A model generated the notes under the pieces. That model did not search any database. It saw nothing but the letters and a program-made list of their open reading frames with translations, and was not told the origin of the DNA. A program made the translations under genes and the position numbers. Shown in pieces: positions 1,865 to 63,269 of a DNA stretch of 64,000 nt; positions within the stretch are counted from its first letter, which is position 1; every line of letters begins with the position of its first letter. This DNA comes from Ptychodera flava (taxonomy: Eukaryota; Hemichordata; Enteropneusta; Ptychoderidae): positions 47,424,129 through 47,488,128 of the forward strand of contig NC_091932.1 in NCBI RefSeq assembly GCF_041260155.1, in the 5' to 3' direction.

Positions 1865-2646
1865 TGATGCCATTTTGGCACACTTAGCTGACTGATCACC
1901 TGAAGCTGATTCTAAACATTAAATCAATTCTGGCATTCATACTTCACACAATAGCAGCCAACAAATACATTTCTGGACACATTTTTCCTGTTACAGTTCT
2001 TAGTAAACAACATGAAGTTAAGTGAGTGCAAAGTCAGCCAATTTCCTTCAAGGCGCAGGTCATTTATCAGCCTTACACACAACACACAGAGAAACACATG
2101 TGCACAATGGTTTGTTTGTACCACCATCACATAATTATTTTTGTTAGAGTCTGTAGAACACAATGCATCCTTTTATTCCAGAGTAGAACTATAGACTGAC
2201 TTGATAAAAATTTCAAACAAAAACAAAGGGCTAAAATGTACATACTCAAAGTCTGCAAGAAGTAATCTAAAAACCAGGGATTGAGATCTACCCATAAACA
2301 ATAAATTCTCGATGGGATTCGAATTCACATGTATGGCACCCTGTCAACTAGCAAAGACATCACAGTCCAAAAATGACTTGACAAAAATCCCCGTCCTTAA
2401 AAAGTGTGGTGTGGTTCAAGTAATCATAACATACTTCTTCCATTTTCTCTGACTGTGACCCCCTCCTCCACACTGTAGTTCATTGTAATTCATGCAGCAC
2501 CCCAGTAAAGCTCATACAGTAAGCCTGTGACTTCAGAATTTCAACCCTTCAAAATTAGGTATGAGACTAGTTCAGCTGTACTGTGTTAGGAGGTAGTGAA
2601 TCCTTTCTTAGGCCATTCATTTGACATCAAACTTACTGACACTTAC
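1865..2646. other. Non-coding spacer with a tRNA-like patch, copy A
   Basis: No supported coding region. The minus strand at 2310-2369 carries a TTCGAATCCC box like an internal Pol III B box, with a weaker A-box-like stretch upstream, so it could be the head of a tRNA-derived SINE. All three copies keep it. I cannot fold a clean cloverleaf, so no tRNA gene is called. Confidence 0.4.
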
Positions 2647-2688
2647 CGCAAAACATGGTCAAACTCATAGTCAAGTTGGAATGAAAAT
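2647..2688 (-). CDS. Possible 42-bp exon of zinc-finger gene 1
   Basis: On the minus strand a strong GTAAGT donor follows base 2647, and a weak AG acceptor precedes base 2688. Read in phase 1 it adds 14 codon-equivalents without a stop and leaves phase 1 at its end, so it may be used or skipped without changing frame. The donor is kept in all three copies. One base differs between A and B/C, a Leu to Val change. The acceptor lacks a good pyrimidine tract, so this is the weakest of the exon calls. Confidence 0.3.
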
Positions 2689-2894
2689 CTATTGAGTTAC
2701 AGTATGTACATGCAACAGATCTGAGCATGACAAAATGGCTGCCATATTACAATGTTGCATTGAAAAGCAAAATGATGTAGACATGTGCACTATATGTATG
2801 TAGCATATTCTTGTGTTAGATCCACTTATACAAGCAGACACATATAAACACACCATACCAAACAAAACTCAACTTCTGCCCTGTATACCCTTAC

Positions 2895-3017
2895 CTTTCA
2901 TTGATAATGTATTGTCTTGATATTGTTGACACATCTTTTCAGTCAGTGTCTCTAATGGTTTCACTAGCTCATGCATTTTGTAAACATGTTTTAGACCTTT
3001 GAAAATTGCACAACACT
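2895..3017 (-). CDS. Coding exon of zinc-finger gene 1 (copy A)
   Basis: A 123-bp exon is bounded by a good acceptor (TTTCTTTCAG) and donor (GTAAGGGT). Only one frame is open. It starts with two bases of a split codon and ends with one, so both borders are phase 1. The peptide begins CCAIFKGLKHVYKMHELV and ends with a Gln-rich, charged stretch. I do not recognise a family. The sequence is identical in all three copies while flanks carry substitutions and indels, which suggests constraint. In this unit the matching zinc-finger exon would lie left of the window. It could also be part of an unrelated spliced gene. Confidence 0.6.
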
Positions 3018-3064
3018 CTGAAAGAAATAAAAAATGTTTCAATGTCAAGAAGCTATACAGTTAA

Positions 3065-3791: not shown

Positions 3792-4718
3792 CTGGGGAGT
3801 CAGCGGGCTGTGTGAACGACGTACTGGATTTACAGTTACTCTGTCTATAAGCCGTTCCACTTTTGCAACATCAAGGTAAACGAGACACTTACATGTAATG
3901 CTAGATTTAAAATATCCATGTGTGCACTGCTATTTTGACTTTCGTTACAATCTGTTTAATGCTGTTCAATAATGGTAAAATTGTTTGAGAATGCCGTGCA
4001 TGTAACTATTAAATGCAATATGGCATTAACAGTGAAGAGGCATGTAATGAAAATATTATTGCCTGAATACATGGGTTTATGTGTCCCCTCAGCAGGAGAC
4101 AATGTGCCCTCCTGGTGTCCGGCAAAGTGTCACCTGTTCTCGGGCACATAAACTTATGTACAGTATACAGGAAATACTGTAAATGTATGGGAAAGACTGC
4201 AGAATGGTGGACTCAGTGTGTTTGATTTTTGTTAGTGACCTACGAAGTCCACTCATCTGATTACTTTAGAGCCCCTAAGAAATTCCTGTTTAGTTCGCAA
4301 TCAGTGGTGTGTCCACTATTCTTTACTTGTATCTGACAGAGCTCTGAATTGCCTCACTGGCTGCTGTAATGTAGCTCGAGGTTTTGCCTTGGTATTTGGG
4401 TTGACCTGCACCGCCATCTAACTAAAATACATGTACCAAGGCAAAATCTCAATCCACAGAACTGTAGCTATGGCCTTATTTGGTGAGAGTCCTAAACCCA
4501 GGAACAACACAGCCCTGCCAGGCAGAGCTTGGGGAGCTATCATTATTTATGACTGGGGTGTGATGGGGTCAGAGGAATTTCATCAGAAGCTCCTAAGTTG
4601 TGAATAACCCCTGGCAACCATGATGAGTTTGAGTAACCCCTTTCTCTAAGACAGAAATTTTGACTGAAACCCCCAATACATATAATAGTAAAATTTACAA
4701 AAATACAGCAATAGTATA
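3792..4718. other. Non-coding spacer with conserved hairpins, copy A
   Basis: No gene is supported. A hairpin spans about 4076-4152, with stems around GGGCACATAAA and its inverse. Another lies around 4380-4450, with arms near TTTTGCCTTGGTA. The single unit of the sequence that expanded into a 48-bp minisatellite in copy B is at about 4210-4258. Confidence 0.6.
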
Positions 4719-7700
4719 CAGCGTTTCCGTTAACGCGAAATTACGCGTATTTTACGCATTTCTTGCAGAAATTACGCAAAAAAAATGACGAACGCGTCGA
4801 TCTGTACGCATTGATTTTCGGTCAGCGTTTCATAAGGAACGTGACGCTGAGCGTAGCACACGCGTACACAGGAGTCTCAGTCAGTCAAACAACAATAAAC
4901 GGCGACGCTTTGGAACTAAAATAGACTAACCCAAGACAGGTTAATTTGTTTCATTTTGCATTTTTTTTAGCTCTGCGTCAGAGAACGAAAAAACATCGCA
5001 AACTCTGTTTAATTTACGACAATTTTCATTGGCCATCATTTCTGATACCTGTCATAACAAGACAATGTTACGATGTTTCACTCTGCATGCAACACCGGAG
5101 ACAATGAGTGAGGTGAAGTTCTGAAGCGAAATGTTGTAATGTGTTTTTTTTTATGATGGGTATCACAGACGACCAATAAAACCGTCTTCTCTAATGCCGT
5201 CTTGTGTTTTTTGTAACAATATTTGTGCTGTATAAATGTTTTAGTGGCGTCTCTAAAACACGCTACACACTGAGTACACGGCATTGCTGACGCATGCACT
5301 ACCCTGAAAATATCTTCCATGCATTTTCCTGAAATATGTCGAAAAGGAAAACTATCAACAGTTATTTTTCCGTCTCGTCGACATCGAGAAGACCGCGTCC
5401 ACTACCTGCTGTATTGGTGGAGCCCGACAACTCTATCGCGAGTCGGCCAGCATCTACTAGTACTGCAGAAATTGCAGCCCCCGTAAAACATCATAGTAAG
5501 TTTCGTCAGGAATGGATGCGAGAGTTCAGCTGGTTATACCCCGATTCGGAAGGTCCCTCAACAGACGTCAAAATGCTCTGTAGACTTTGTAAACGTGCTG
5601 GTAAAAATAATTCCTTCACGAAAGGTTGTACTGACATGCAACGTTCTGCACTGATTCGGCATGTTGACACAAGCGACCACCGAGCAGCATGTCAATCAAC
5701 GGGATTGCGAAAGACGATGGAACGATCAATTGAAACCGCTGCAGTTGCGGATTCTGACGGACAGACAGCTGTCATGCGTACCGTTTATGTCATGGCCAAG
5801 GAGGATATCGCGGACAGAAAGTTAACGACTTTGCTGGAATTGCAAAAACTGAATGGTAGTGACATGCTAAAAGCATGTAATCCGTACTCTCATTCCGTCT
5901 CCATCCATGAAATGCAGAGAGCAATAGCAGATATCATACGGCGAGATAATTGTGAAAAGATTAGGCAGAGCCCTTTCATTGGTCTTCTCACCGATGAAAC
6001 CGTCAATATAACGATCGACAAGAAACTGATAATATATCTGCGTGTGATGACAAATAACGGGCCGACTACGTTATTCCATGAAAATGTGACAGTTAGTAAC
6101 GGTACGGCAGAAACGGTGACAAATGCTTTGATAGAATCGCTTCGTAAAAGTGATATAAACGTACAGAAAGTTCTCGGTTTCGGGTCGGACGGTGCCAGTG
6201 TCATGACTGGTCGACTAAATGGCGTTGCAGCCCGTATGAAGAGACTAACTCCGTTTATGACGTCGGTGCACTGCGTAGCTCACCGCTGTGCTCTGTCCGC
6301 CAGTGATGCAACAAAACGAGATAAGGGAGTCATCGATGTAAGCGAATATCGTAGAGACGTAAATAACATTTATAACTTTTACCACTACTCTGCTGTCCGA
6401 ATGAATCGTCTTCGCGAATTGAGTGAGGCACTTGACAACAATGATTTCCGTGCACTCAAAGAGCCGTGCTCTGTGCGGTGGTTATCACTTTCAAGAGCAG
6501 TAAATGCTATAAATAACAGTTGGAATATTCTTGCCCTGGAATTAGAGGAGGAATCTCGTCCCGAAAAACACAATCCTACAGCGAAGGGACTCTTGACACG
6601 CGTATCCTCGTTCAAATTTGTGGCCACGACCAAACTTCTGAAGGATGTATTACCGGTAATGGATAGATTAAATCTGCTATTCCAGCGCGATAACATTGAC
6701 CTTTCGTCCATAGCGCCGATGGTTTCATCAACAGTCGAAACTCTCCGAAATTTATTGGAGACTCCGTACAGCGGTGTACACGAGGCTGGCTTTCTTGGTG
6801 AACTTGACCGCGAGAACCAAACTTATCTGGGAGTGCAGCTTAGAAATGCGGCCGATATTAACGTGAATGCGTTTGCCAACGGTACTCGACGCGAGTTCAT
6901 CCAGGCACTCGTTTACAACTTGCAACACCGTTTCTCGCAGGAAGAAGTCACTGTACTCTCTTCATTAGACGTCCTGCTGAATCCGCGGAAACTTCCCCAA
7001 GACAGAAACGATCTAACGAACTTCGGACAGGTCGAGATTGAGACACTCAGTGACCATTTTGGTCACGACATCGATCGGGATGGAGATATCCACCCGGCTA
7101 TTATAAATAATGATGAACTTCGTGTGGAATACCAACAATTCAAACTTATGCTTTATGGCCTGAGACATATGTCCTTTATTGCCGTTTGTACACTGATGTT
7201 TACCGAGTATCGCGAGATTTATCCCAACATCTCTACGCTCGCCACCATAGCGGCTGTGATCCCTGTCTCTTCTGTACCTTGCGAAAGAGGGTTCAGTACA
7301 CAAAACCGAATTAAAAATTGCCACAGAAACCGCCTAAACGAAGACGTTATCAATGACCTCATGACGATTACTATGGAAGGCCCGGCAGTGGGCAATTTCG
7401 ATTTCAGAGCAGCCATGTTGTTATTTCGACAACAGCGTCAACGCCGAAAGTAGAGAGAAACATTTATAAGTGAATGTCGTCAGTGTTTAGATCGGCTGGT
7501 CACATTGTCAGGACAGCAAAGGTGACCTTCGCTTCGTTTATTGACTGACACGTGCGCGTAAACGCATATATGCAATGTATGTATACAGACCATTACCGAG
7601 CTCCAGGTGTAGACAAAACGAAACAAATGTCTTGATTAGCTTGAAATGAACCTTGTCGTAAGTTGCAACTTAAAAACTATTTCGGTGAATAAAGGAGTTC

Positions 7701-7868
7701 ATTTGAATGCGTTTTGACTATTTGTCAACTGTGTCTTCTATAAACTAATTTGCATATGCTAATTTAAAACACTTTGAAAAGGTTACGCATTACGGCTACA
7801 TTTTACGCAAAAAAAATAGAGGACGCGTACGGCCATACGCAAAGCAAAAAATACTAACGGAAACGCTG
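4719..7868 (+). mobile_element. Autonomous hAT transposon, 3150 bp
   Basis: The termini are CAGCGTTTCCGTTA and TAACGGAAACGCTG, with several subterminal TTACGC/GCGTA motifs at each end that could be transposase binding sites. Copy B has the empty site. The flanks AGTATA (4713-4718) and AGTAAA (7869-7874) fit a 6-bp target duplication with one later change. The element encloses one intact transposase gene. Its absence from B shows it inserted after that duplication, or was lost from B. Confidence 0.92.
5336..7453 (+). CDS. hAT transposase with N-terminal zinc finger
   Basis: A 705-residue uninterrupted frame encodes the transposase that would cut and paste the surrounding element. A C2H2-like finger (C82, C85, H109, H115) resembles the finger of C17orf113/ZBED-type proteins and probably binds DNA. 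The catalytic core shows D220 in GLLTDET, D285 in GFGSDGAS and the HCVAHRCAL motif at about 312-320. Near the C-terminus VPCERGFSTQNRIKN, with E650, is the hAT dimerisation block that likely supplies the third acidic residue. The ATG at 5336 opens the frame, and an AATAAA lies at 7688. No stop or frameshift is present, which suggests a young insertion. Whether it is still active cannot be judged. A domesticated host gene is less likely because the inverted repeats are intact. Confidence 0.92.
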   Translation: MSKRKTINSYFSVSSTSRRPRPLPAVLVEPDNSIASRPASTSTAEIAAPVKHHSKFRQEWMREFSWLYPDSEGPSTDVKMLCRLCKRAGKNNSFTKGCTDMQRSALIRHVDTSDHRAACQSTGLRKTMERSIETAAVADSDGQTAVMRTVYVMAKEDIADRKLTTLLELQKLNGSDMLKACNPYSHSVSIHEMQRAIADIIRRDNCEKIRQSPFIGLLTDETVNITIDKKLIIYLRVMTNNGPTTLFHENVTVSNGTAETVTNALIESLRKSDINVQKVLGFGSDGASVMTGRLNGVAARMKRLTPFMTSVHCVAHRCALSASDATKRDKGVIDVSEYRRDVNNIYNFYHYSAVRMNRLRELSEALDNNDFRALKEPCSVRWLSLSRAVNAINNSWNILALELEEESRPEKHNPTAKGLLTRVSSFKFVATTKLLKDVLPVMDRLNLLFQRDNIDLSSIAPMVSSTVETLRNLLETPYSGVHEAGFLGELDRENQTYLGVQLRNAADINVNAFANGTRREFIQALVYNLQHRFSQEEVTVLSSLDVLLNPRKLPQDRNDLTNFGQVEIETLSDHFGHDIDRDGDIHPAIINNDELRVEYQQFKLMLYGLRHMSFIAVCTLMFTEYREIYPNISTLATIAAVIPVSSVPCERGFSTQNRIKNCHRNRLNEDVINDLMTITMEGPAVGNFDFRAAMLLFRQQRQRRK

Positions 7869-7874
7869 AGTAAA

Positions 7875-9939: not shown

Positions 9940-10492
9940 GGTCCTACTAATTACTGCCCGTGACTGCCCGACTGCCTGAGGACTGCCCGAGAACTGCCCG
10001 AGCACTGCCCGAGGAAAAAATGGGCCAAATTTCGCCCATAACACTATGCCAATAGGTTCAGTTCATGTCATGCCCAGCCAACCAAAAATATCATTGATTT
10101 GGCATTAACCTGATGTTTTCTCCGGCAGTTTTGGAACACTGAAGACGCTGAGCTTGAAGGACGTCGCGGGCTTGATAGTGAGATACCATTCAGTCCGAGA
10201 GGTGGCACAATAACCTCACTGAGGGCGTACAGCCTGACAGCCTACCACCCCTTTTACTGAATGGTATAATCTCACAATCAAGATGGGGACGTCTTTCTAG
10301 TCGAAAGCCTGGCATCTTTCTGGTTCTAAAACCGCTACAGAAAACACCAAATCAATAATATTTTTGGTTGACTGGGCATGATACAAGTTCAACCCATTGG
10401 CTAAGTGTTAAAATGGGCGAAAATTTGCCTACTTGCTCCTCGGGCAGTCCTCGGGCAGCTACGGGCAGTCACGGGCAGTAATTAGTAGGACC
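9940..10492. mobile_element. Palindromic Mutator-like MITE, 553 bp
   Basis: Both ends begin with the same 31-bp inverted sequence (GGTCCTACTAATTACTGCCC and onward), followed by several ACTGCCCGNG repeats. The 9-bp direct repeat TGTTCTGTT flanks it (9930-9938, 10493-10501), and copy B is empty. Inner arms are also inverted, for example the 'accattcagt' and 'ccaaaaatat' stretches, so almost the whole element can fold back. A 9-bp duplication with long termini points to the Mutator group. Confidence 0.85.
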
Positions 10493-10501: not shown

Positions 10502-12287
10502 AACTGTGATGTTTCAGTGGTTCTAGTGGCATCTGGCGGTCAGGTCAAGGGTCTCGCTACAGTACCACTGCGAGCAAACCTATACGCATTTTTGGTAGTT
10601 TACTACTTCACACTGTCGGCTACCCCTAAAAAATAATGATACAGCCGGCTGGGTATTTCTGTCGCAGCATTTGACTAGGTTCTTTGTGTCTATCTCTATG
10701 GTACATTGTATGTTGTGCGTTATTTACAGTGTTTTGAGATACACGCCGGAAAACCAACACCTTTGACCCTGAAAAAACATCTTTTTCTTGGTCACATGGG
10801 CCATCAGAGTGTACCAGATCACAAGTTCTTATATACGGGTGTTTCACCTTAGAAGTGGAACCAAAGCTGCTGTGGTGCATGATGTTTTCGGGCAGGATTT
10901 CTTCCGTTTGTTGGCTGGTTTTGACGTTCACGTTTTTACCGGTAACCCGTGGGCCGTAGGGCAATGGCGGGGTTAAAAACCTGAAAGTCAAAACCAGCCC
11001 ATAAAAGGCAGAAGTCCCGCCCGAAAACACCACAGCTGCGGACCTACTGCTAGTTTCACCTCCGCTTCAGTTCAAATTGACCATACGTACCCTGTTGACT
11101 TAAAACACCCCAGTTGTTGTTGAACTTGAATGACCTGGTACCACCGCCATTAAACTTAAAGTTTGTTCTCTCACAGGGTTCCACATCCGAAAGAAGATGA
11201 TCCTTGTTCATTAGTTCCACCGATTCCATCTTTATAGTGCAAATTTTGCTGAAAAATATATCAAAAAGACGTAAAATTCACTGAATTTGCGGCTAACCGC
11301 GCGGCGACGGCTATGTAATACGGAGCCTGGAGGGAGTACGTACCCGGGAATCCATGTACCACGCTTTGGATGAACTTGTGACCTCTCAACTGAACTTAGA
11401 AACATCCGGGCCGTTGGGGGCGTTTTGCATAAAGACACGGGCTGCATTAAAAAATACTGGAAAATGGGTTGGAGCAATCGCGATTAAAATTTTAATTTTT
11501 TTCAATCCATCCTCGAAACCTCAAAAACCTTTTAAATCACCCTCTACTTGATATAAACTGTTCAAGAAACCCCCTCATAATCATCCTTCGGGCTGTCGGG
11601 TTGTGTGCGACTATATTCATTGCACAATTTTCAAAAGTATCCAACAGTGTCCAATTCTACTAATCACAGGTCATTAAAATCTCTCTATCAGATTTTATCA
11701 GATTGTTAGGTTTTCCAATCAATAACAATGTCAATCTACAATCAGTATCTAAAATTGTTTATCAGTCATCAACAGTTTAGGAAGTATGATTCTCATCTCT
11801 TTTCAAGATATTTTGTCGTCTCCATGGTAGCTTTCTCTGTTGTTTTGCTGATGATGCATGACGAAGGGATGTACGTTTTTTCTGTTTAACAATAACATGT
11901 TCTTTAAAAGCACTTTACAAACAAATATGCTGAAATTCAAATGTACCCACCATGTCAAATACAATCTGTACAATATGTTTATTTGCATCGGTGACAAACA
12001 AATGGGACAGGAGCTACAATTTTGATGATAATATTCTGACACCTTTCTTTTCGCGTATTCTTTCTTTTCCTGTATTATATACAGTCTATATACACTAGTC
12101 TATATCCAATTCAGGTGTTAACACAGTTTGTATTGATATTGGAAGTGAATACTTTACAAAGTAGAAAAAGAAACTCTAGTATGAAGGACATGTCTGCATA
12201 TTTTAATCTCAACAAATGTAGAATTACTTTCTGCATAACAGACATTGTCTATAATTGTTGTCTGCTGGCTTCTACAAGCACGCCACA
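10502..12287. other. Non-coding spacer, copy A
   Basis: Shared with copy B (48560-49516 and 51069-51893). Apart from the hairpin at 10865-11040 I see no gene. Open stretches here come from the hairpin or differ between copies. Confidence 0.6.
10865..11040. repeat. Large imperfect hairpin, copy A
   Basis: Arms of about 70 bp are inverted, with matching blocks such as TTTTCGGGC/GCCCGAAAA and GGCTGGTTTTGAC/GTCAAAACCAGCC. Copy B keeps it at 48949-49113. It looks like an old MITE or an inverted duplication. Confidence 0.75.
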
Positions 12288-12295: not shown

Positions 12296-13495
12296 ACGAT
12301 GCTGAAGTTGGACTCAGTTTCGGATTCGGTTTCGGATTCGGTTTCGGATTCGGTTTCGGATTCGAATAACTGAGAATATTTTTATATTTCCAGCTAATAT
12401 TATTATTTTTTCGGAGGATATGATAACTACTGACACACAAGGAGATATTTTATCAAGATCACCTACCTGCACATGTAGGATGTATTTGATACATGGTAAT
12501 AATCATAATTTATACAGTTCAAAAAACAAAACACTTTACGCAGTAGTGCAAGAAACTGTAGGCATGATTACATCAGACAAAACTGCTGAAAATTACTCAA
12601 AATATACAACTTATGAGTAATTATGGGCATTATGCAGTTTGTACTATTCAAGTTAACTGTAGAACGCAAATGCATTCAATGCAACATTTATTACACAACA
12701 TATTAACTGATAGTTTAGTCATGGAGTTTAGTATGATACATTCAAAATGAGATCTATGTAGCACAACATCAAACAAAACATTAGTATTACACCATGTGAC
12801 ACATATTGTGACATATAAACAAATTAAAGTATGTTTTTGTAAATGTTGTTTTCCTTGCTCGACACTTCCTTTCAAATTAAAGTGCTTTGAAGTTTTCTGT
12901 AATGTATATTTTTTAACCATTTTAATCTTGAATTATGCACATAATTTATGCTGTGAAATATATACTACACTGCGTACATATGCCAACAGGTAATCCATTG
13001 AAAACTTGTTCTCGACAACAAGTATTTATCTTTGTATACGAAAGTACTGTGGACTATTTTTATTTTCACTGGAATTTATGTTAGCTGAAAACAAATTTTT
13101 TGCCAGAGGTCCATATATCTTTCTTTCATGAATATGACTTTGTTTGTGTACCGTCTATTTACTGTCTGTTCTGTTCTGTTTTGTGTCTGTGTTTACAACT
13201 ATTGTCTTACGAATTCTGACCTACTGTCATTGGATTATGGATTGGTATGATTGCGATTATTTCATTGTTTCACTGTGATCTTATTTTCACTTCGTGTAGT
13301 GTGATTGGATTTTATTTTAGCTGAAAAAGGGTCCAGCGGAAGTAACGAAAATATATTCCAAGTGAAAATAAAGTATTCCACAGTAAAACAAAATCGGCTG
13401 AAAATATAAAATTTCTTTCAGTCACTCGAATCCGAAACCGAATCCGAAACTGAATCCGAAACCGAATCCGAAACCGAGTCTAACTTCAGCATCGT
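12296..13495. mobile_element. DNA transposon with 12-bp-repeat termini, 1200 bp
   Basis: The ends start ACGATGCTGAAGTT and end in its near-complement. Each terminal repeat contains a run of the 12-mer GGTTTCGGATTC (12310-12365 and about 13425-13480). The 8-bp direct repeat AATACTAG flanks it (12288-12295, 13496-13503), and copy B has one AATACTAG at the empty site. An 8-bp duplication would fit hAT or P-type elements, but the terminal sequence matches neither that I know. No transposase is present. Confidence 0.85.
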
Positions 13496-22767: not shown

Positions 22768-23135
22768 GAAAATATGGTGTTATATGAAGTGTTTGCAAAG
22801 CTTTTTGAACTTTTTAATTCCATACCGGTACATTTAAACATCCAGAAGACTTTTGGGACAAGTGCCTTTTTTATCAGTATTCCCGACGAGTCACTTTGAC
22901 TGCTTGATGGTAACCCAGTCCAATTTCTGTCAACAGAGGAGTACACGCACACGCGCACACACACACACAGAGAGGCAGTTTTTCCAATCTGTAAGAATAG
23001 CTTCCATTGGCACATATACCACTGTGTATGGCCATATGGAAAATAAAAAACCTGCAATATTTTAGGACGATTTTTGCAGTGTTTGATCCCAAAACAAAAT
23101 GCCACATATCTTCTTCAAGAATTCCCAGCTCAAAT
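22768..23135. other. Spacer with (AC)n microsatellite, copy A
   Basis: Shared with 54596-54958 in copy B. An AC-rich run lies at about 22943-22972. TACCGGTA at 22823-22830 has no CCGG-containing counterpart in B. No gene is seen. Confidence 0.6.
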
Positions 23136-25025
23136 TGCAAAACCTTGTGCCGAGGCATATTTCATCTTTGTATTTGATGTGTACAATAATCACAATCATT
23201 ATAACCTATCCAGAATCATCCAATAATACTAAGTCAATTACATTAATTCCATGCAGTACAACATTACAAGAGGACATCTTCACTTTGATATAATAAATTG
23301 TACCACTGATTTTGAGGTACAAGGAAGTGATTTCTTGGCCATTTTGGAGTGTTTTAACCGTGCAGTTTTCATAAAAACACAAAATTATATTAGACACAAA
23401 ATGATTTCCAAGCATAATGTCTTGTTAGGTTATAGAGACAAGTGAATATCACAATTGAAGAAAAACATGGCAGCAGAAGCTGCAGCATAAATTAGAAGTT
23501 AAAAGGTCAGCACCCATTTGTAAATGCCAAGAAATCCAATACAACTTCGTAATATGTATACACCACAGAAAAAGACGTCCGATTTTTTGTGGACGTGGAT
23601 AAGTATGGGAGCCAAAGTTTTTGACACAATGTTGCATCACCAAGATGACCTTTGACTCACTTTCACAAAATAATCTGAAACTGTAATTTAACAGTTGGAA
23701 TATATCATATTCATAGCATGGTTATAGTCAGCAAAACAACCTCTCTTAGTGCTGACATATCAACCATATAGTGACCACCTGTCACATGTGACATGGAACA
23801 TGCAAGGCAAAATAATTTTCAACCTGTTATTTTAACAGCGCCCTCATATGAGGTGCTGTGATTTTATTGGTAATACTACCAGCAGCATAAAACACATATC
23901 CTTCATTGCAATGTTGTAAAAGAATACAATAGAGCAAATTTATAACACAACTTGTAATTTCACCAAAATGCAGCTAGATATTGTCAGCCATATTCTAAGA
24001 TGCAACTAATGACAGCATTTTTACATCACAATCTCCCATTATTTTTATGAGTATAACACCAACATGACACATCTCTCATAAAGATGACAATAATCTGAAG
24101 ATTAAGTCGGGAACATATTGTAAAAAAGCATGATATTGTTCATTTGTTCTATTTGTTTTCCATGAGGTCAGATACTCTAGTGTAAACACCTTGATATATC
24201 ATGAATGTTTAACATTAAGCAGGGCTTAAAATAATTTTTTTCCTGGTAGTCCACTTGGGCTACCATTTTGTGAAGTTGGTATCCCAATGTGAAAATGGCT
24301 GATAGTTCATGGATTTTGGTTTAGGAATATTTTTTCACCAACCAGACAATGAAAGACCAATTTATCAAGATTCTGCCCAGAAAGTAAGTTTCTCATCATT
24401 TGACAAGAATACTTGCAGGCTTTACCAAATGTAACTGGTATAATGGACAACAGTGACACTCAAAAGTTTAGAGACCTATCGATGATTTGTTCAATACACA
24501 GAGGTTGTACATGTACCGGTATACACTCTTTGCATTTATGTTTACTTATTATTATTATTATACTATTATGTGGTCTGATCTTTTAGTGGGACAACATGTG
24601 CCTTTTAAGACTGCACTTGTGTGTGAATGTTTTACCACACTCTTTGCATTCATGCTGTCTGACATAAGAATGGATCAACATATGGTTGATAAGCTCATCC
24701 TTCCTTTTAAATGTTATACCACACTCTGCTTTTATGTGGTCTGATCTCTAAGTGGATCAATATGTGCTTTAAAGACCGCCTATATATTTCGAATAGACAG
24801 ATGGGCTTACAGGTTTATTGGTAAAATGACAAGCACATCCTACATACATAAGCAAATGTCAACAAAAAAATTAATCACAGAAGGCTTGACAAAAAGAAAA
24901 GGTTGAAAGAGTGAGGAAAAAAGAGCGGGAAATTGTACAAGGGATCTGGTAAAAAGTAATGCTACCTCATCAATCTCCTAGACCTACCCCCTCCTGAACA
25001 TCAAATGTTCCATCCCTTTGTTTAT
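23136..25025. other. Segment present only in copy A: older duplicate of the zinc-finger 3' region
   Basis: Copy B joins directly across this stretch. The part at 23680-24230 resembles 26250-26690 in the same unit (for example 'atagcatggtta' and 'gccctcata' blocks in the same order). It is followed by zinc-finger remnants, as at the main gene. This is probably an older tandem duplicate of the gene's 3' end that copy B has lost. Confidence 0.55.
24575..24780 (-). pseudogene. C2H2 zinc-finger remnant
   Basis: The minus strand shows two to three finger units in the 84-bp rhythm of the main array: 'ttaccacactctttgcattcatg' antisense blocks, meaning CKECGK, with His-rich ends. They have substitutions and no long open frame. 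It matches the family of the gene at 27435-30040. Confidence 0.75.
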
Positions 25026-26240: not shown

Positions 26241-27434
26241 AAAAACAGTCTGAAGCTGTAATTCAATGATTTGAATAATACCATAATCATAGCATGGTTA
26301 CAGTCACCAAATTACCCCTCTCAGTGCTGAAAGATCAGCCATACAATGACCAACCTGTCACAGAGGAACACTAGACATAATATTTTTCAATAATATTATT
26401 CTAACAGTGCCCTCATAAGAGCTACTGTAATTTTATTGGTAGTACTAACAGCAGCATACAAAAATATCCCTAATTTCAGGACCAGATTTTACGAAAAATT
26501 TAGCAGAGCTAGTTTATTACACAGACTTTGCATGAGATGAAGAAAAACATTGTCAGCCGTATGAGTGTAAAACCAAAGATATCAATAATTTCAAGATACA
26601 GTCAGGAACAAATTGTTAACAATCTAGATATCGAAAGCCCAAGTTCATATGTTCTATTGGTATTTAATGAAGTCATGTATTTAAGTGCGTTCACCAAGGT
26701 ATATCAAGGATGGTTTTATTGTTTGAATTATTTTCTTAGTTAACATTAGCAAGGCCTGGTATTTAAAGAGTTAACATGTATATATTACCGTAAGACAAGT
26801 TTACTCCCCTCTGTCTCACACTCTTTGCATTCACAAGGTTTGATATGTTATTGGATCAATTTGTATGCACAAAGATTTTTCTCTAATGAAAATCTTTTAC
26901 CAGCTTACGTTGATGTTTACATGTGAAAAGCTTTTGCATGCATGTCTTACATCATTCTTTGCCTTCAAGAGGTCTGTTCTTCCAAGGGGCATCACATGTC
27001 TCTTATGTCTGCCCTAGGATTCTATAAATAAAACAAACAAAACTCGACAATCCTGTGTAATTGGTGTCAGATTCTTTATTTGATTGCTATGACCCATCGG
27101 GTTTCATCAATATAAGTCTCATAGAATCATTATTTCAAGGTAAAATATCACCATGGTCTTGTAATGTCTAATATCTGAGCTGTTGTGTTCATGTGATTTT
27201 TGAGTGGGTGAACATATGCCTAATAACCCTTTCACCACCATGGTTTGTCCCAAATCCATTGTTTTCTATGGTAAAGTTGGACCTGTATACAGGGAACTGG
27301 GGGTGAAAGGGTTAAGATGTCACTTCAGTGTGAATGTTTTACCACACTCTTTACATTCATGCTGTCTGATGCCAGAATGGGTCTACAAGTGCCTTCTAAG
27401 ATTAGTGTGTAAATGTTTTACACACTCTTTACAT
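26241..27434 (-). other. 3' flank of zinc-finger gene 2 with decayed fingers
   Basis: On the minus strand this follows the stop of the zinc-finger gene. Degenerate finger units continue to about 26810. A possible polyadenylation signal AATAAA (minus) is at 27075-27080, about 360 bases past the stop. TACCGTA at 26786-26792 is absent from copy B. Confidence 0.6.
26786..26792. other. TACCGTA scar (three-base form)
   Basis: Copy A reads TATATTACCGTAAGAC; copy B reads TATATTAAGAC near 56718. Same pattern with CCG instead of CCGG. Confidence 0.75.
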
Positions 27435-31839: not shown

Positions 31840-32187
31840 TCTCATTTCGTCTTTTGAAATGTAATGTCGGGAATTTCTGGTAAAACTGGAGATCTCGTAC
31901 CGCACCCAAATACATGACGATAAAATTCACTGTTGACTTGAAAGTGTTGTTTTTCAAGATCATTTTCAGCATAGCTATCATGTATTTTGTTGTTGGTTGT
32001 TTGATTATGCAATCATTTGATGATCTTTCCTGATTTAATGCTCTGTCAACTGATTCCATTGCTTCATTGTGCGTTGCATTAGTGTACATTGAAACAATGT
32101 CTAGTGTTACCAATGTTGCATTGGCCGGAACTTTTATTGTCTCAATTTTCCGTGTAAAATCTGTCGTATCTTTGATGTATGTTGTTT
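31840..32187 (-). pseudogene. Penelope-like reverse transcriptase fragment
   Basis: The minus strand reads TTYIKDTTDFTRKIE, then LVTLDIVSMYTNATHNEA, the block that in Penelope-type enzymes reads close to YIKDTTDF and LDVVSLYTNIPH. A frame change near 31945 leads to NSEFYRHVFGCGTRSPVLPE, matching the GCAMGSPVSPE block in degraded form. The catalytic YxDD region is absent. Only about 115 codons survive, so the fragment is non-functional. Assignment to Penelope rather than another YTN-motif reverse transcriptase is from motif memory. Confidence 0.7.
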
Positions 32188-34475: not shown

Positions 34476-36088
34476 AAGTCCAGGCAATGACTCTTGACAT
34501 AAGAAAATCAGAACACCAGATGTGAACCAAAAATGTCCCCATACAGAAGAGACTTCCTATAATAGCTATTGATACATGTACTGCTAAATTTAAAATGCCT
34601 TTCTTGACTGATAAATCTTTGTATGATCAACATCAGCAGAAAGTGTCATCAGATTTAGTGCCATCATTCAGAATATAGATCTCTAATACAAACATTGTTT
34701 CCCTGTTTAACCAATCTGGGCTGCCACCCTAATGACAAAAGGTCATTAAATAAGTCAAGCAATAATTTATCAACAGGTTGTTGCTGTTCACTTTTACACT
34801 ACTAGTAGAGGATCAACATCAGTACCATGTTCCATAAAATTTGAAGCAGTATATCTGGACATATCACACTAATGAGGAAAGTACATTAAATATACAAATT
34901 AATTAACATGATAGTGATAAAAGTCCTTATACACAGGTAAAGCAACAAGAGCTCAACATCTCTACTAAGTTTCAACAAATCTGATGAAGTATTTTTTGAT
35001 TTATCAGCCTTCTTACAAGAATTCATTTAATATGCAAATTGGCAATTAATTGACATGATACTGCCTAATGTCTTCACACACTATCAGAGAATAAAGAGAT
35101 TGACATCTCTGTACAACGCTTTTTCAATTGTTGTGCAGTATTTCTGGACATAGCACACTAATTACGAATGTTCATTAAATATGCAGATTAATTCACTGAC
35201 AAAATATCACTAATTTTTTTCTGCGCTATTACAACGCTGTGTGCAAAACATCTCTACTGAGTTTCATCAAATTTGCTGCAGTATGTCTAGACATATTTCC
35301 TTAATTACAGAAAAGGATCAAATATTCAAATTAGTGATTAAATGACATGATCCTGCAAAATGTCTTTGTACACAGTTATATCTTTTGGTATATGAATATC
35401 TGTACCACGTTTCATCAATTTTGAGTAAGTATTTCTCGACATATTATACAATGATGAAATTCATTATATCTGCAAATTAGCAATTACACGACATGATTCT
35501 GCTAAATGTCTTTGCATACTGCTACAGCTCTTGTATATCACCATCTGTACCAAGTTTCATCAAATATGAGTCGGTATTTCTTGATATAGCACCCTATTTA
35601 CAAATTCTCAAATGTGCAAATAATAGCTACTAATTGACGTGATCCTACTTAATGACTTTGCACAAAGTTACAGCTCTGGTACATAAACATCTGTAAGGTT
35701 CATATAATTTGAGTCAGTATTTATTGAAGTATTACAGGAATTATGAAAATTCATAAAATATGCAAATTAGCAATTAATTGACACAATACTGAGAGATGTC
35801 TTTGTGTTCTATCAGAGCTCTGTGTGACCAACATGTGTACAAACTTTATCAAACTTTGTGTACCGGTAGTCTCTTGAGAAAGCTCTTTTTCAAAAATAAC
35901 TAATTATGCAAATTAGTACTAATTATACACGCCACATTGAAAATAATGGGCGTGCACATGTATGTCATAGTGTATTATCCTTGTACCAAGTTTGAAAGGA
36001 ATTGACTCAGGCATATCTGAGATATCAGCATGGACGGACCGACGGAAGGAGCCTAAACCATAAGTCCCCTGGACTTCGTCCTGGGACT
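34476..36088 (+). mobile_element. Helentron-like element, family 3, copy B
   Basis: The left motif AAGTCCAGG (34476-34484) recurs in the terminal hairpin at 36063-36088 (AGTCCCCTGGACTT...GGGACT). The core consists of repeated units carrying ATATGCAAATTAG. This is the uninterrupted form of the copy at 195-1532. TACCGGTA at 35861-35868 is absent from A. Confidence 0.65.
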
Positions 36089-36286: not shown

Positions 36287-36414
36287 TTTTACAAGTGGTA
36301 TAGCCACAAACTGATGATATCACATCACCGTACACAATACACATTGCCATAATTACAAGCCTCTGGGTTTTGCGATTTAACGTCATCAGTTTGTGGCTAT
36401 ACCACTTGTAAAAT
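36287..36414. repeat. Snap-back inverted repeat, copy B
   Basis: Same arms as at 1731-1864 (GGTATAGCCACAAACTGATGA and inverse), with a slightly shorter loop. Confidence 0.8.
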
Positions 36415-37133
36415 GATGCCATTTTGGCACACTTAGCTGACTGATCACCTGAAGCTGATGCTAAACATCAATGAATTATGTAAATCAATTCTAGCATTCA
36501 TACTTCACACAATGGTGGCCAACATATACATTTCTGGGCACATTTTTCCTGTTACAGTTCTTAGTAAACAACTTCAAGTTAAATGAGTGCAAAGTCAGCC
36601 AATTTCCTTCAGGGCGCAGGTCATTTACCAGCCTTACACACAACACACAGAGAAACACATTTATTTCCAAAAACATGTGCATATTGGTTTGTTTGTACCA
36701 ACATCACATGATTATTTTTGTTAGAGTCTGTAGAACACATTGCATCTATTTTATTCCTGAGTAGAACTATAGACTGACTTGATAAAAATTTCAAACAAAA
36801 ACAAAGGGCTAAAATGTACGGTATGTACTCAAAGTCTGCAAGAAGTAATCTAAAAACCAGGGATTGAGATCTACCCATAAACAATAAATTCTTGATGGGA
36901 TTCGAATTCACATGTATGGCACCCTGTAAACTAGCAAAGACATCACAGTCCAAATATGACTTGACAAAAATCCCCGTCCTTAAAAAGTGTGGTGTGGTTC
37001 AAGTAATCATAACATACTTCTTCCAATTTCTCTGACTGTGACCCCCTCCTCCACACACTGTAGTTCATTGTAATTCATGCAGCACCCCAGTAAAGCTCAT
37101 ACAGAAGGCCTGTGACTTCAGAATTTCAACCCT
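36415..37133. other. Non-coding spacer with a tRNA-like patch, copy B
   Basis: Aligned to 1865-2560. The tRNA-B-box-like patch is at 36893-36950 on the minus strand. TACGGTA at 36817-36823 is shared with copy C but not A. Confidence 0.55.
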
Positions 37134-43844: not shown

Positions 43845-44258
43845 GTGTGCACTGCTATTTTGACTTTCGTTACAATCTGTTTAATGCTGTTCAATAATGG
43901 TAAAATTGTTTGAGAATGCCGTGCATGTAACTATTAAATGCAATATAGCATTAACAGTGAAGAGGCATGTAAGGCCAAAAAAAAAAAAAGAAATGTTTCT
44001 GGTCAGGTCTTTCTTTAAAAAATGGTGCGGCGACGCGCATTTTATTTTATTTTATTTTTTTTTTATTTTTTTTCGCTCAAGGGATGGAGGAGGGTCAGTT
44101 TTATAGTTTTATCAATATAGTCACATATATACTGTTCATGCAGTCACTGATCATGCCCCCCACAGAATTTTCTCTTTCTCTTCAGCTATTTTGGTTTGGT
44201 GTCAGCCACAGCCGCCTGCCACAAACAGAAAAAAAAGGGTGACGCGCTGTTGTTCAAG

Positions 44259-46721: not shown

Positions 46722-46799
46722 TCAAGTGACGCGCGCGCTGACCAGAAACATTTCTTTTTCTTTTTTTGGCCTAATACAAATATTATTGCCTGAATACGT

Positions 46800-46880
46800 G
46801 GGTTTATGTGCCCTCGCAGCAGGAGACAATTTGCCCTCCTGGTGTCCGGCAAAGTGTCACCTGTTCTCGGGCACATAAAC
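46800..46880. repeat. Conserved hairpin, copy B
   Basis: Stems of about 32 bases starting TTTATGTGCCC pair with GGGCACATAAA. Copy A has the counterpart at 4076-4152. Confidence 0.75.
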
Positions 46881-46931
46881 TTATGTATACAGGAAATAAA
46901 TGTATAGGAAAGACTTAAGAAAAGTGGACTC

Positions 46932-47219
46932 ACTGTGTTTGAGTATTGTTAGTGACCTAGGAAGTCCACTAATCTGATCACTGTGTTTGAGTATTGTTAG
47001 TGACCTAGGAAGTCCACTCATCTGATCACTGTGTTTGAGTATTGTTAGTGACCTAGGAAGTCCACTCATCTGATCACTGTGTTTGAGTATTGTTAGTGAC
47101 CTAGGAAGTCCACTCATCTGATCACTGTGTTTGAGTATTGTTAGTGACCTACGAAGTCCACTCATCTAATCACTGTGTTTGAGTATTGTTAGTGACCTAG
47201 GAAGTCCACTCATCTGATT
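46932..47219. repeat. 48-bp minisatellite, six units
   Basis: Units start CACTGTGTTTGAGTATTG at 46932, 46980, 47028, 47076, 47124 and 47172. Copy A has one unit, so the expansion is private to B. Because 48 is a multiple of three it yields an open frame with a 16-residue repeat on the minus strand, which I do not regard as a gene. Confidence 0.95.
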
Positions 47220-48948
47220 ACTTTAGAGCCCCTAAGAAATTTCTGTTTAGTTCGCAATCACTGGTGTGTCCACTATTCCTTACTTGTATCTGACAGAGCT
47301 CTGAATTGCCTCACTGGCTGCTGTAATGTAGCTCGAGGTTTTGCCTTGGTATTTGGGTTGACCTGCACCGCCATCTAACCAAAATACATGTACCAAGGCA
47401 AAACCTCAATCCACAGAACTGTAGCTATGGCCTTATTTGGTGAGAGTCCTAAACCCAGGAACAACAGCCCTGCCACGCCGAGCTTTGGGAGCCATCATTA
47501 TTTATGACTGGGGGTGTGATGGGGTCAGAGGAATTTCATCAGAAGCTCCTAAGTTTTGAATAACCCCCAGCAACCATGATGAATTTGAGTAACCCCTTTC
47601 TCTAAGTCAGAAATTTTGACTGAAACCCCCATCACTATTAAAGTTAAATACCAATACATATAATAGTAAAATTTACAAAAATACAGCAATAGTAAAGACC
47701 TTTCAAATTCTGGTATACCCTGCTAGATTATCATTGGTTATCTCATGACGGTTGAAAAAGGTGAAATCAACAAAATCAATGTCTAAGTCACAACAAAATG
47801 TAGATATAAAAGCTCATGGTATAGCTAGTATCCAATCATATAGTATTGTTTACTTTGTATGAGTATCGTGACAGGGTTTTCACTAAGATATCTGACAGGG
47901 CAGAATTTCAAAGTGGGGGGGGGAGAACACACAGCAGGCTTAGGGGGAAAGTGTCAGAGGGGGTTGCATCCTCTCTTGCGTGGAAAATGTTGTAATTGAT
48001 TCCTGCAATTGTGCAGCCTGGTGCAATCATAGAGGCATTTTCAATCTGTGATTTTACAAAGTAAACCTGTCAGAACACCCACACGGGAGTGCACGAGATG
48101 GGGGTGCCCTCTCGCATGGAAAATTTTGAGAATTTGATGTGTGAAATGGTGCAATCCCGGTGTGTCAATTCATATTGCACCCCAAACTGAGTAACCCCCT
48201 TATCTCCACATTTGGAACAACCCACCTTGTAGTTTTCAATTTTTTGAGTGGCCCCTTTAGATTCCTCCAATCTCCCAGCCGTAAATAACAACGGCTCCCT
48301 AGTGTCTTCCTTAGCCCTGCGTACGATTCTGTGTGTTCCCAGTGTTGTGGAGGCCGTGCAACGCCGTGAACACACACCATGATCCATACGCAGGACTTAA
48401 TAATTGTGTCTGACCTTGTCAAATATGCTGACACAGGAGTACCCAGTGAACCATTATTTTTAGGGGTGCCCAAAAGGTACCCAGTGAACCATTATTTTTA
48501 GGGGTGCCCAAAAGGTATGAGGGACTGAATACAGCCATAAAACAATTTGCCTAGTTCAGTAAGTCATACGTTCTGTTAAGTGTGATGTTTCAGTGGTTCT
48601 AGTGGCATCTGGCGCTCAGGTCAAGGGTCTCGCTACAGTACCACTGCGAGCAAACCTATACGCATTTTTGGTAGTTTACTACTTCACACTGTCGGCTACC
48701 CCTACAAAATAATGATACAGCCGGCTGGGTATTTCTGTCGCAGCATTTGATAAGGTTCCTTGTGTCTATCTCTATGGTACATTGTATTTTGTGCGTTATT
48801 TGCAGTGTTTTGAGATACACACCGGAAAACCTACACCTTTGACCCTGAAAAAATATCTTTTTCTTGGTCACATAGGCCGTCAGAGTGTACCAGATCACAA
48901 GTACTTATATACGGGTGTTTCACCTTAGAAGTGGAACCACAGCTGCTG
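47220..48948. other. Non-coding spacer, copy B
   Basis: Aligned with 4259-4712 and 7875-8693 of copy A plus the start of 10502-10864. A 38-bp direct duplication lies at 48439-48514 (GTACCCAGTGAACC start), single in A. No gene is supported. Confidence 0.6.
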
Positions 48949-49113
48949 TGGTGCATGATGTTTTCGGGCAGGATTTCTTCCGTTTGTTGGCTGGTTTTGA
49001 CGTTCACGTTTTTACCGGTAACCCGTGGGCAATGAATGGCGGGGTTAAAAACGTGAAAGTCAAAACCAGCCCATAAAAGGCAGAAATCCCGCCCGAAAAC
49101 ACCACAGCTGCGG
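48949..49113. repeat. Large imperfect hairpin, copy B
   Basis: Counterpart of 10865-11040. The arms keep TTTTCGGGC/GCCCGAAAA and GGCTGGTTTTGAC pairing despite small losses in the loop. Confidence 0.75.
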
Positions 49114-59612: not shown

Positions 59613-59620
59613 TACCGGTA
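59613..59620. other. TACCGGTA scar inside the zinc-finger exon
   Basis: Copy B reads GACTACCGGTAATG where copy A reads GACTAATG. The six added bases keep the frame and add two residues to the protein. It is one of at least seven copy-specific changes of this type. Confidence 0.85.
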
Positions 59621-59974
59621 ATGTTTTACTGCACTCAACGCGTCGGAATGGCCTGAGTTCAGAATGGATCAATGCAAGCCCCTCGCATTCACTTTCTTGT
59701 GCCCCTGAATAATTCAAGCCATGTGCTCCATCATCACTGCTGTTCATATAAATTTCACCACACTCATTGCTGACTTCACCATCATTGTCGTCACCATTAT
59801 GAGAATGGTACTCCACCAAACTGAAGGAATCTTTGTGTAATGTAGTTTGGTTTTCAATATGATCACCCTCATGGTGTGGAGTTGAGTCTTCATCCCTGTT
59901 CTCTGGTTTGGACACATCATATTCCAATGTAATCAGCCCACGTAGCACAAGGCTTTGTACAATTATCGATACAT

Positions 59975-60496
59975 CTGTTAGTTAAGAGATAAATATCAAG
60001 CAGTTAAAGAGTAAGGTAGTAACATCCATAGCTCCATAGAGCACTCTTGGTACAGAGAGAGGTAGGCTTTTGATGTTAATGATGACTTCATGTACCGGTA
60101 ATATTGGACAAAACATGGACTTTTTCATGGATTTTATTAGATTAGTTAAGAGCACATCAATAGCCATCATACCAATCTTCAATCCAAACCTTATATGTCA
60201 AAGGTCATATCTATAGCACTGCACAGCAAGGGACAGATTATGAACAAGTCATTGACAATGACATAGTCTCCCTTGAAATGTGGACTTTGTCACTAGAAGT
60301 GACTAAAAATTGAAGTCAATATAATGCGCATGAAAAAAGAAACCGCAGGTAGCAAAGACCTGATTTTGACAGATGTTCATATTGGATTGGATTGTAAACA
60401 AGTAGACATTGTATGTCCTTTTACCAAGTTGGACAGAATTAGGTATGTCATGCCCTGGCTCATGAAATGTCAAAATTCAACTAATCCACAAGAAAC
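59975..60496. other. Intron sequence upstream of zinc-finger exon 3 and unit junction
   Basis: Aligned with 30041-30501 of A and continuing into unit C. It shows the sequence that the foldback element interrupts between A and B. TACCGGTA at 60093-60100 is absent from A. Confidence 0.55.
60093..60100. other. TACCGGTA scar in the intron
   Basis: Copy B reads CATGTACCGGTAATATT; copy A reads CATGTAATATT at about 30195. A clean six-base difference at a TA. Confidence 0.85.
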
Positions 60497-62131
60497 AAGT
60501 CCGGGCAATGACTCTTGACATAAGAAAATCAGAACACCAGATGTGAACCAAAAATGTCCCCATACAGAAGAGACTTCCTATAATAGCTATTGATACATGT
60601 ACCGGTACTGCTAAATTTAAAATGCCTTTCTTGACTGGTAAATCTTTGTATGATCAACATCGGCAGAAAGTGTCATCAGATTTAGTGCCATCATTCAGAA
60701 TATAGATCTCTAATACAAACATTGTTTCCCTGTTTAACCAATCTGGGCTGCCACGCTAATGACAAAAGGTCATTAAATAAGTCAAGCAATAATTTATCAA
60801 CAGGTTGTTGCTGTTCACTTTTACACTACTAGTAGAGGATCAACATCAGTACCATGTTCCATAAAATTTGATGCAGTATATCTGGACATATCACACTAAT
60901 GAGGAAAATACATTAAATATACAAATTAAAAATTAATTAACATGATAGTGATAAACGTCCTTATACATACCCCCGGTAGGTAAAGCAACAAGAGCTCAAC
61001 ATCTCTACTAAAGTTTCAACAAATCTGATGAAGTATTTCTTGATTTATAAGCCTTCTTACAAGAATTCATTTAATATGCAAATTGGCAATTAATTGACAT
61101 GATACTGCCTAATGTCTTCACACACTATCAGAGAATAAAGAGATTAACATCTCTGTACAACGTTTTTTCAATTGTTGTGCAGTATTTCTGGACATAGCAC
61201 ACTAATTACGAATGTTCATTAAATATGCAAAATTAATTCATTGACAAGATATCACTAATTTTTTTCTGCACTATTACAACGCTGTGTGCAAAACATCTGT
61301 ACTGAGTTTCATCAAATTTGCTGCAGTATGTCTAGACATATTTCCTTAATTACAGAAAAGGATCAAATATTCAAATTAGTGATTAAATGACATGATCCTG
61401 CAAAATGTCTTTGTACACAGTTATATCTTTTGGTATATGAATATCTGTACCACGTTTCATCAATTTTGAGTAAGTATTTCTCGACATATTATACAATGAT
61501 GAAATTCATTATATCTGCAAATTAGCAATTACACGACATGATTCTGCTAAATGTCTTTGCATACTGCTACAGCTCTTGTATATCACCATCTGTACCAAGT
61601 TTCATCAAATATGAGTTGGCATTTCTTGACAGCACCCTAATTACAAAAATTCTCAAATATGCAAATTAGCTTCTAATTGACATAATCCTGCTTAATGACT
61701 TTGTACAAAGTTACAGCTCTGGTATATAAACATCTGTAAGGTTCATATAATTTGAGTCAGTATTTATTGAAGTATTACAGGAATTATGAAAATTCATAAA
61801 ATATGCAAATTAGCAATTAATTGACACACTACTGAGAGATGTCTTTGTGTTCTATCAGAGCTCTGTGTGACCAACATGTGTACAAACTTTATCAAACTTT
61901 GTGTACCGGTAGTCTCTTGAGAAAGCTCTTTTTCAAAAATAACTAATTATGCAAATTAGTACTAATTATACACGCCACATTGAAAATAATGGGCGTGCAC
62001 ATGTATCTCATAGTGTATTATCCTTGTACCAAGTTTGAAAGAAAATGACTCAGGCATATCTGAGATATCTGCATGGACGGACTGACGGAAGGAGCCTAAA
62101 CCATAAGTCCCCTGGACTTCATCCTGGGACT
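60497..62131 (+). mobile_element. Helentron-like element, family 3, copy C
   Basis: Start AAGTCCGGG (60497-60505), terminal hairpin at 62106-62131. Very similar to copy B, sharing TACCGGTA (61904-61911). A further TACCGGTA at 60600-60607 is private to C. Confidence 0.65.
60600..60607. other. TACCGGTA scar private to copy C
   Basis: Copy C reads CATGTACCGGTACTGC; copy B reads CATGTACTGC at about 34578. Confidence 0.85.
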
Positions 62132-63269
62132 AAAAAAGTATGGGCACATATGTAAAATATTTAAGTCAAAGTTGTGAAAGCAATATATATTTTTAACACT
62201 TCAGTCCAATATGAGTATACATGAAAGCATAGCTATCAAAACCATGAGTGATCAGAGAGATCAATATCAAGTAAAACCTCAGCATATGACATGAAAATGT
62301 CTGACAATCAGTTTGTATTGGCTGCAATATTTTACAAGTGGTATAGCCACAAACTGATGATATCAAATCACCGTACACAATACACATTGCCATAATTACA
62401 AGCCTCTGGGTTTTGCGATTTCACGTCATCAGTTTGTGGCCATACCACTTGTAAAATGATGCCATCTTGGCACAAATTGCTGACTGATCACCTGAAGCTG
62501 ATTCTAAACATTAAATCAATTCTGGCATTCATACTTCACACAATGGCGGCCAACAAATACATTTCTGGACACATTTTTCCTGTTACAGTTCTCAGTAAAC
62601 AACTTCAAGTTAAATGAGTGAAAAGTCAGCCAATTTCCTACAGGGCGCAGGTCATTTACCAGCCTTACACACAAAACACAGAGAAACACATGTATTTCCA
62701 AAAACATGTGCATATTGGTTTGTTTGTACCACCATCACATGATTATTTTTGTTAGAGTCTGTAGAACACATTGCATCTATTTTATTCCAGAGTAGAACTA
62801 TAGACTGACTTGATAAAAATTTCAAACAAAAACAAAGGGCTAAAATGTACGGTATGTACTCAAAGTCTGCAAGAAGTAATCTGAAAACCAGGGATTGAGA
62901 TCTACCCATAAACAATAAATTCTCGACGGGATTCGAATTCACATGTATGGCACCCTGTCAACTAGCAAAGACATCACAGTCCAAATATGACTTGACAAAA
63001 ATCCCCGTCCTTAAAAAGTGTGGTGTGGTTCAAGTAATCATAACATACTTCTTCCAATTTCTCTGACTGTGACCCCCTCCTCCACACACTGTAGTTCATT
63101 GTAATTCATGGAGCACCCCAGTAAAGCTCATACAGTAAGCCTGTGACTTCAGAATTTCAACCCTTAAAAATTAGGTACGAGACTAGTTCAGCTGTACTGT
63201 GTACTGTGTTAGGAGGTGGTGAATCCTTTCTTAGGCCATTCATTTGACATCAAACTTACTGACACTTAC
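62132..63269. other. Non-coding spacer, copy C
   Basis: Contains the snap-back repeat at 62330-62456 and the tRNA-like patch at 62925-62982 (minus). It lacks the 3.1 kb insertion of copy B. No gene. Confidence 0.55.

Follow-up and report, generated by a model that had tools for sequence, protein, structure and literature searches.

Cut-and-paste transposons of the Tc1/mariner type leave short footprints at the sites they vacate. In published accounts, these footprints are given as 2–4 bp in general (PMC7913693), as 0–4 bp for Passer (PMC9976928), and as 1–4 bp of retained terminal sequence for Stowaway and Osmar5 (PMC1925063). For Sleeping Beauty, the cut lies three bases inside the element and leaves three-base 3′ overhangs that are closed by end joining (PMC7827188), and the footprint is tabulated as C(A/T)GTA beside TA (PMC3878927). 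Here we describe micro-insertions that convert TA to TACCGGTA, and related shorter forms, among paralogous copies in a stretch of 64,000 nucleotides from Ptychodera flava (NC_091932.1, positions 47,424,129 to 47,488,128), referred to below as the window. TA-flanked excision scars are already known; what is new is that the scars read CCGG and lie so densely in a stretch where no intact element was found. Very probably these micro-insertions are footprints left on excision by cut-and-paste transposons of the Tc1/mariner type that target TA, whatever the exact position of the cut.

Comparison of the window with itself revealed three tandem copies of a zinc-finger-gene unit of ~26 kb, with copy A extending from 431 to 30504, copy B from 34422 to 60413, and copy C from 60443 to the end of the window at 64000. 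Ungapped identity in aligned blocks was 92–98% for A-B and A-C and 98–99% for B-C, and because of this high identity the copies serve as a natural before-and-after comparison. We collected all gaps of 3–12 bp outside the zinc-finger arrays and reduced them to 46 independent indels. Four of the eight 6-bp indels were exactly TA to TACCGGTA, that is, TACCGG at a TA; three of the nine 5-bp indels had the form TA-CNG-TA, with TA in one copy and TACAGTA, TACTGTA or TACCGTA in the other; and one of the two 9-bp indels was TACCCCCGG. By comparison, random 6-base segments of the window qualified as TACCGGTA at a frequency of 0.0007 and random 5-base segments as TA-C.G-TA at 0.001.

For a second control, in which the zinc-finger arrays were included and every copy pair was read both ways, we took TA-Nk-TA words in aligned sequence and counted those for which the other copy was shorter by exactly k+2 bases. 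The sequence-only reading of this DNA had raised the concern that other 6-bp insertions at TA might prove equally common; within the window they did not, since 7 of 230 comparisons at k=4 lacked 6 bp, and five of these were TACCGGTA (four events), one was an overlapping reading of the same gap, and one was a near-tandem repeat. At k=3 the count was 7 of 201, made up of TACAGTA, TACTGTA, TACCGTA, TACGGTA twice (one imperfect event), the tandem repeat TATGATA, and one overlapping reading. Longer words gave 4 of 170 at k=5, all tandem or overlapping readings, 1 of 200 at k=6, which was irregular, and 1 of 267 at k=7, which was TACCCCCGGTA. Several words were set aside: TATGATA (30327), TAAAAATTA (60927) and TACTGTGTA (63195), the last with C...G ends, as tandem repeats; TAAACTTA (11151) as a near-tandem repeat; and TATATCAATA (51714) as irregular. 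A duplicated TA on both sides of the added bases was found for four TACCGGTA events and for one event each of TACCGTA, TACAGTA and TACTGTA. The added bases (CCGG, CCG, CAG and CTG) numbered three or four, within the range of 2–4 for such footprints, with the exception of 7 bases at 60968. Three observations support the view of these differences as cut-and-paste scars at a TA target, which the sequence-only reading had put forward: the indel spectrum, the presence of CAG and CTG scars alongside, and the rarity at TA of 6-bp insertions with any other sequence.

The positions given in that reading were correct. The insertion at 35861..35868 in copy B corresponds to an exact 6-bp absence, leaving TA, in copy A, and recurs in copy C at 61904..61911 as the same event. 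An exact TA also stands in copy A opposite the copy B insertions at 59613..59620, which lies within the zinc-finger open reading frame (ORF) on the minus strand, and at 60093..60100; in copy B (34573 region) opposite the copy C insertion at 60600..60607; and in copy B opposite the three-base form TACCGTA at 26786..26792 in copy A. Two further insertions with an exact TA in copy B had been overlooked, TACAGTA at 4159..4165 and TACTGTA, 16 bp from it, at 4175..4181, both in copy A. Also absent from the earlier list were TACCGGTA at 6651, at 10937/49013, and at 24514. The first of these we rejected as a scar: it encodes Leu-Pro-Val in the ORF of a hAT transposase, no insertion is needed to account for it, and the relative P0002 reads DVLPIMDRLN there, of equal length and with closely similar residues by eye. 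It is a coding coincidence. An inverted repeat spans 10880-11032, and its left arm holds the occurrence at 10937..10944; the right arm, by eye, has TA at the matching place, where the arm alignment ends. The counterpart of this occurrence in copy B is at 49013..49020, and it is possibly an older scar common to both copies. The occurrence at 24514..24521 lies in a stretch found in A only, where there is no usable paralogue, and forms a weak inverted repeat (12/16) with that at 22823.

Is the abundance of TACCGGTA itself unusual? It occurs 10 times in the window against 0.28 expected, with a maximum of 2 in 100 dinucleotide shuffles, and it heads both the 256 TANNNNTA words and the 256 palindromic octamers when words are ranked by observed/expected with a small pseudocount; CCGCGCGG exceeds it in ratio (2 vs 0.03) if the pseudocount is dropped. 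Eight of the 10 occurrences fall within the 33.5 kb common to the copies and two in the remaining 30.5 kb. With duplicated copies counted once, so that 35861/61904 and 10937/49013 are one locus each, there are 8 independent loci (Poisson P ~7e-10 against 0.28). An explanation by chance and ordinary indels, or by selection on TACCGGTA as a functional motif such as a transcription-factor site, can point to the one occurrence in ten that is a coding coincidence (6651) and to the resemblance of the word to a Grainyhead-type site. It is nonetheless highly improbable: 8 loci stand against 0.28, the copies differ by whole 6-bp, TA-duplicating insertions rather than by base changes, and one insertion lies within a coding zinc finger. 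The controls make chance very unlikely. As words, TACCGTA and TACGGTA were weakly enriched (7 vs 2.94, a total reached in 5 of 100 shuffles), and the weight of the three-base forms therefore rests on the alignments. Two other words, TACTAGTA (6 vs 0.74) and TACATGTA (9 vs 2.08), were enriched too (sites listed: 5455, 13498, 34800 and 44549). The paralogue alignments contained no clean insertion of either between copies, the single TACATGTA case being the 60600 insertion read from the adjoining TA; we do not claim them as scars, and they may be older scars left by ends of another type.

At one site the direction of change could be read directly. The insertion at 59613 gives the zinc-finger ORF of copy B two additional codons, Pro-Val (KTLPVVSNGN versus KTLVSNGN in A), and the finger of copy A has, by eye, the same length as the other fingers; TA is therefore the older state there, and the micro-insertion at 59613 is a gain. 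At the other sites we infer gain because recurrent loss would first need many TACCGGTA sites to have arisen by chance. The opposite history, in which TACCGGTA was ancestral and TACCGG was deleted repeatedly, draws on the fact that most sites have just two copies in the window and are not polarisable alone; however, the many chance sites that it requires at the outset, against 0.28 expected, and the length of the finger at 59613 make us give it very little credence.

We propose that the micro-insertions arose as follows. An element would insert at TA and duplicate it, its transposase would later cut a few bases inside each end to leave 3′ overhangs that consist of the bases at the start of the element, and the gap would be closed by end joining; the element, the transposase, the cut and the repair are what we infer from the insertions. 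In the form that we favour, and to which we give roughly even chances, the cut would fall three bases inside the ends of a family whose ends begin CCG. Such CCG overhangs would yield TACCGTA or TACGGTA when joined in register and TACCGGTA, the commonest form, when joined with a one-base shift in which CG pairs with CG; a second putative family with ends beginning CAG would yield TACAGTA and TACTGTA. When the joints of two identical overhangs were enumerated, the CCG overhang paired at 2 of 3 positions in register (TACCGTA/TACGGTA) and at 2 of 2 when shifted by one (TACCGGTA), whereas the CAG overhang paired at 2 of 3 in register (TACAGTA/TACTGTA) and had no pairing when shifted. The enumerated CCG and CAG joints are the clean forms that were seen (TACGGTA only imperfectly), and the fully paired joint is the commonest. 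The element that this model predicts would have the ends 5′-TA-CCG...CGG-TA-3′.

The position of the cut could also differ without altering the interpretation as scars, and we regard this as a tentative option, short of an even chance. A self-complementary four-base CCGG overhang would pair at 4 of 4 positions and give TACCGGTA directly, but would need trimming to give the three-base forms. A two-base CC overhang with fill-in can yield TACCGTA, TACGGTA and TACCGGTA, though without base pairing. The TACCCCCGGTA at 60968 would fit a joint of CC from one end with CCCGG from an end beginning CCGGG. The two-base version also predicts TACCTA and TAGGTA, which together were not enriched (4 vs 11.6 and 12 vs 9.4 expected, respectively), and the other copy was shorter by exactly 4 bp in 0 of 204 TA-NN-TA comparisons (k=2). 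The suggestion in the sequence-only reading that up to two bases are retained from each end describes a possible cut, but a CCG end with a three-base overhang explains the three clean forms with pairing.

A process without any element would require that a break at TA be filled in, duplicating the TA, that untemplated C, usually CC, be added to each 3′ end, and that the ends be joined as TA-CmGn-TA. If this were true, an enzyme would break DNA at TA and CCGG would be written into the genome repeatedly. All the CCGG-class scars, including TACCCCCGGTA (C5G2), do have the form CmGn, and TAGGGTA (5 vs 1.82) and TACCCCTA (2 vs 0.45) exceed expectation. Free addition, however, should spread over m and n, yet the (2,2) form dominates (10 vs 0.3), followed by (2,1) at 4 vs 1.5 and (1,2) at 3 vs 1.18; the (1,1) form was found 9 times against 7 expected, TACCTA lies below expectation, and, among forms with at least three C before G, only (5,2) occurs, once, with (3,1), (3,2) and (3,3) never seen. 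The adjoining CAG and CTG scars, moreover, need a templated end. Untemplated C addition fits the data less well than excision scars do, and the data do not call for the undescribed CCGG-adding process that the sequence-only reading offered as an alternative, which we consider improbable.

Several observations weigh against the interpretation as excision scars. At three of the 10 micro-insertion sites the other copy does not have a clean TA. Copy A has TACCGGTA at 22823..22830, as the sequence-only reading stated, and copy B has TAC-ACATTT; the 4-bp difference makes the comparison imperfect and possibly reflects two different scars from one insertion. At 36817..36823 in copy B, and as the same event at 62848..62854 in copy C, TACGGTA is present as claimed, but copy A reads TACATACTC and not TATGTACTC, a difference of 5 bp plus a mismatch. 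The variant that had been placed at about 60966 does exist, as TACCCCCGGTA at 60968..60978 in copy C, but copy B, which is without 9 bp there, has CA and not TA at the site. The words TAGGGTA and TACCCCTA already mentioned, together with TAGGGGGTA (1 vs 0.1), are above expectation and are not predicted by the model. According to one review, the Sleeping Beauty footprint is TAG(T/A)CTA (PMC2874221), non-canonical footprints are reported after Hsmar2 excision (PMC3770610), and in a rice survey only 8 of 94 excisions, all classes taken together, were perfect, the rest having deletions or filler (PMC4423477). The scars described here are cleaner than those of that survey, and they outnumber elements, whereas its mariner class showed insertions to excisions of 59:21 and 81:31, or 2.6–2.8 per excision. 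An excess of scars over elements would be expected of a low-copy, very mobile element.

The same side of the balance holds the results of our search for the source element. In the window, no pair of TA-flanked CCG...CGG or CAG...CTG ends marked a convincing element, and none of the large inter-copy insertions inspected had a TA duplication with C...G ends. In a search for the DD34D/E-type DDE transposase expected of such an element, no Tc1/mariner family matched any of the 13 ORFs scanned with Pfam, which included 10 of the 83 minor ORFs of at least 75 amino acids. The statement in the sequence-only reading that no intact element is visible in the window thus holds within the inverted-repeat and end-pair searches made. 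There were 93 TA-CCG...CGG-TA pairs no more than 10 kb apart, the best of which (22823-24521) matched at 12 of 16 arm bases; its left site has sequence aligning with B to either side, which makes a simple insertion unlikely. The TA-CAG...CTG-TA pairs numbered 1215; the top match was 14 of 16, and the best five lay within an inverted repeat at 30547-34358. An inverted-repeat scan of TA pairs 40–6000 bp apart gave 176 pairs with at least 13 of 16 arm bases matching, and all 47 of these with C...G ends were inspected. They consisted of small TA-flanked palindromes (1734-1861, 36290-36410 and 62333-62453, with TACAAGTGGTATAGCCAC ends, and 4068-4160 and 46795-46887), simple-repeat pairs, pairs within 30547-34358, a few weak pairs, and a pair at 9945-10487. 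This last pair, TA-flanked with CT...AG ends, was rejected because its inverted repeat extends past the TA (GGTCC/GGACC); we judge it by eye to be part of an element with a possible 9-bp duplication, at 9940-10492 in copy A, whose inverted repeat is long (GGTCCTACTAATTACTGCCCG...) and whose two flanks both carry TGTTCTGTT. In scans of viral contigs, which were uninformative, the 18-base end of a local palindrome had 0 matches and TACATGTACCGGTA had 68.

Large insertions interrupt the copies, and the set differs between A and B; across 431-64000 these copy-specific insertions form a good natural catalogue of recent insertions. The 3.8-kb inverted-repeat structure at 30547-34358 lies between A and B, and the B-C junction (60413-60443) is without it. 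Tandem repeats of ~345 bp occur in its right arm, and the sequences that flank it on the outside (GGCGAGCG...CGCTCGCC) are themselves an inverted repeat. In copy A, a terminal-inverted-repeat insertion at 12296-13495 has an 8-bp duplication, AATACTAG, and carries tandem repeats of the GTTTCGGATTCG type immediately within each end; in the same copy, a hAT-type element at 4717-7868 contains a 705-amino-acid ORF and is flanked by AGTA-TA on the left and AGTA on the right, without a clean 8-bp duplication. Copy B has a 2.8-kb insertion at 43973-46771 with a TAA duplication and GGCCAAAAA ends, which, judged from its ends only, is Harbinger-like, and a 48-bp tandem repeat at 46930-47222 that makes B longer than A by 235 bp. 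The DNA is animal-like, and its ORFs include zinc-finger, hAT transposase and LINE sequences. Among named organisms, the hAT ORF found its best matches in Babylonia areolata, at 39% identity, and in Ptychodera flava, at 43% in a partial match over 60%. Of the 120 matches listed for the zinc-finger ORF, a Ptychodera flava protein had the highest identity (51% over 60%), and higher-scoring matches among those 120 were pocket mouse, hare and rattlesnake proteins. For a piece of reverse transcriptase the best matches were ENA entries, and the best among named organisms was Patella caerulea.

In the literature searched, as far as the partial texts extend, a recurrent CCGG scar was not found, although its absence from the literature is not thereby shown; no paper containing the word TACCGGTA was visibly about transposon scars in its title or the start of its abstract, and TACCGTA, TACGGTA and TACATGTA were absent, in the context of footprints or mariner elements, among the literature matches listed. 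If the window is typical of the genome, TACCGGTA would mark very many earlier transpositions of a family whose own members are absent or rare, and scars would record cut-and-paste activity better than surviving copies do; the intense past activity suggested by the sequence-only reading follows only in that case. From the 8 loci found here against 0.28 expected, the model with CCG ends predicts a ~30-fold genome-wide excess of TACCGGTA; it also predicts the ends of the missing element and in what mixture the three scar forms should occur. Small scars that keep the reading frame, as the Pro-Val at 59613 does, would also be a route by which elements alter proteins.

Minos, a Tc1-like element of Drosophila hydei with CGAG at its ends, leaves a 6-bp footprint made up of TA and four terminal bases; the main scar described here is alike in length but has CCGG between the TAs. 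PIF/Harbinger and piggyBac elements also move by cut-and-paste. However, PIF/Pong elements make a 3-bp duplication and generally excise precisely (PMC4561436), and piggyBac uses a TTAA target that is repaired without a footprint (PMC7351741), and therefore neither would give TA-CCGG-TA. The Stowaway miniature inverted-repeat elements and the mariner-like Osmar5, both of grasses, retain 1–4 bp of terminal sequence between TA duplications and leave several different scars per site (PMC1925063); their ends are TACTCC...AGTA and intact elements are known, in contrast to the CCG(G) seen here. The resemblance to Sleeping Beauty and other Tc1/mariner elements lies in a TA duplication around three bases of which the first is C and the last G. 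The main scar here has four bases (CCGG), which implies other end bases; TACAGTA and TACTGTA, on the other hand, equal the footprint TAC(A/T)GTA tabulated for Sleeping Beauty (PMC3878927).

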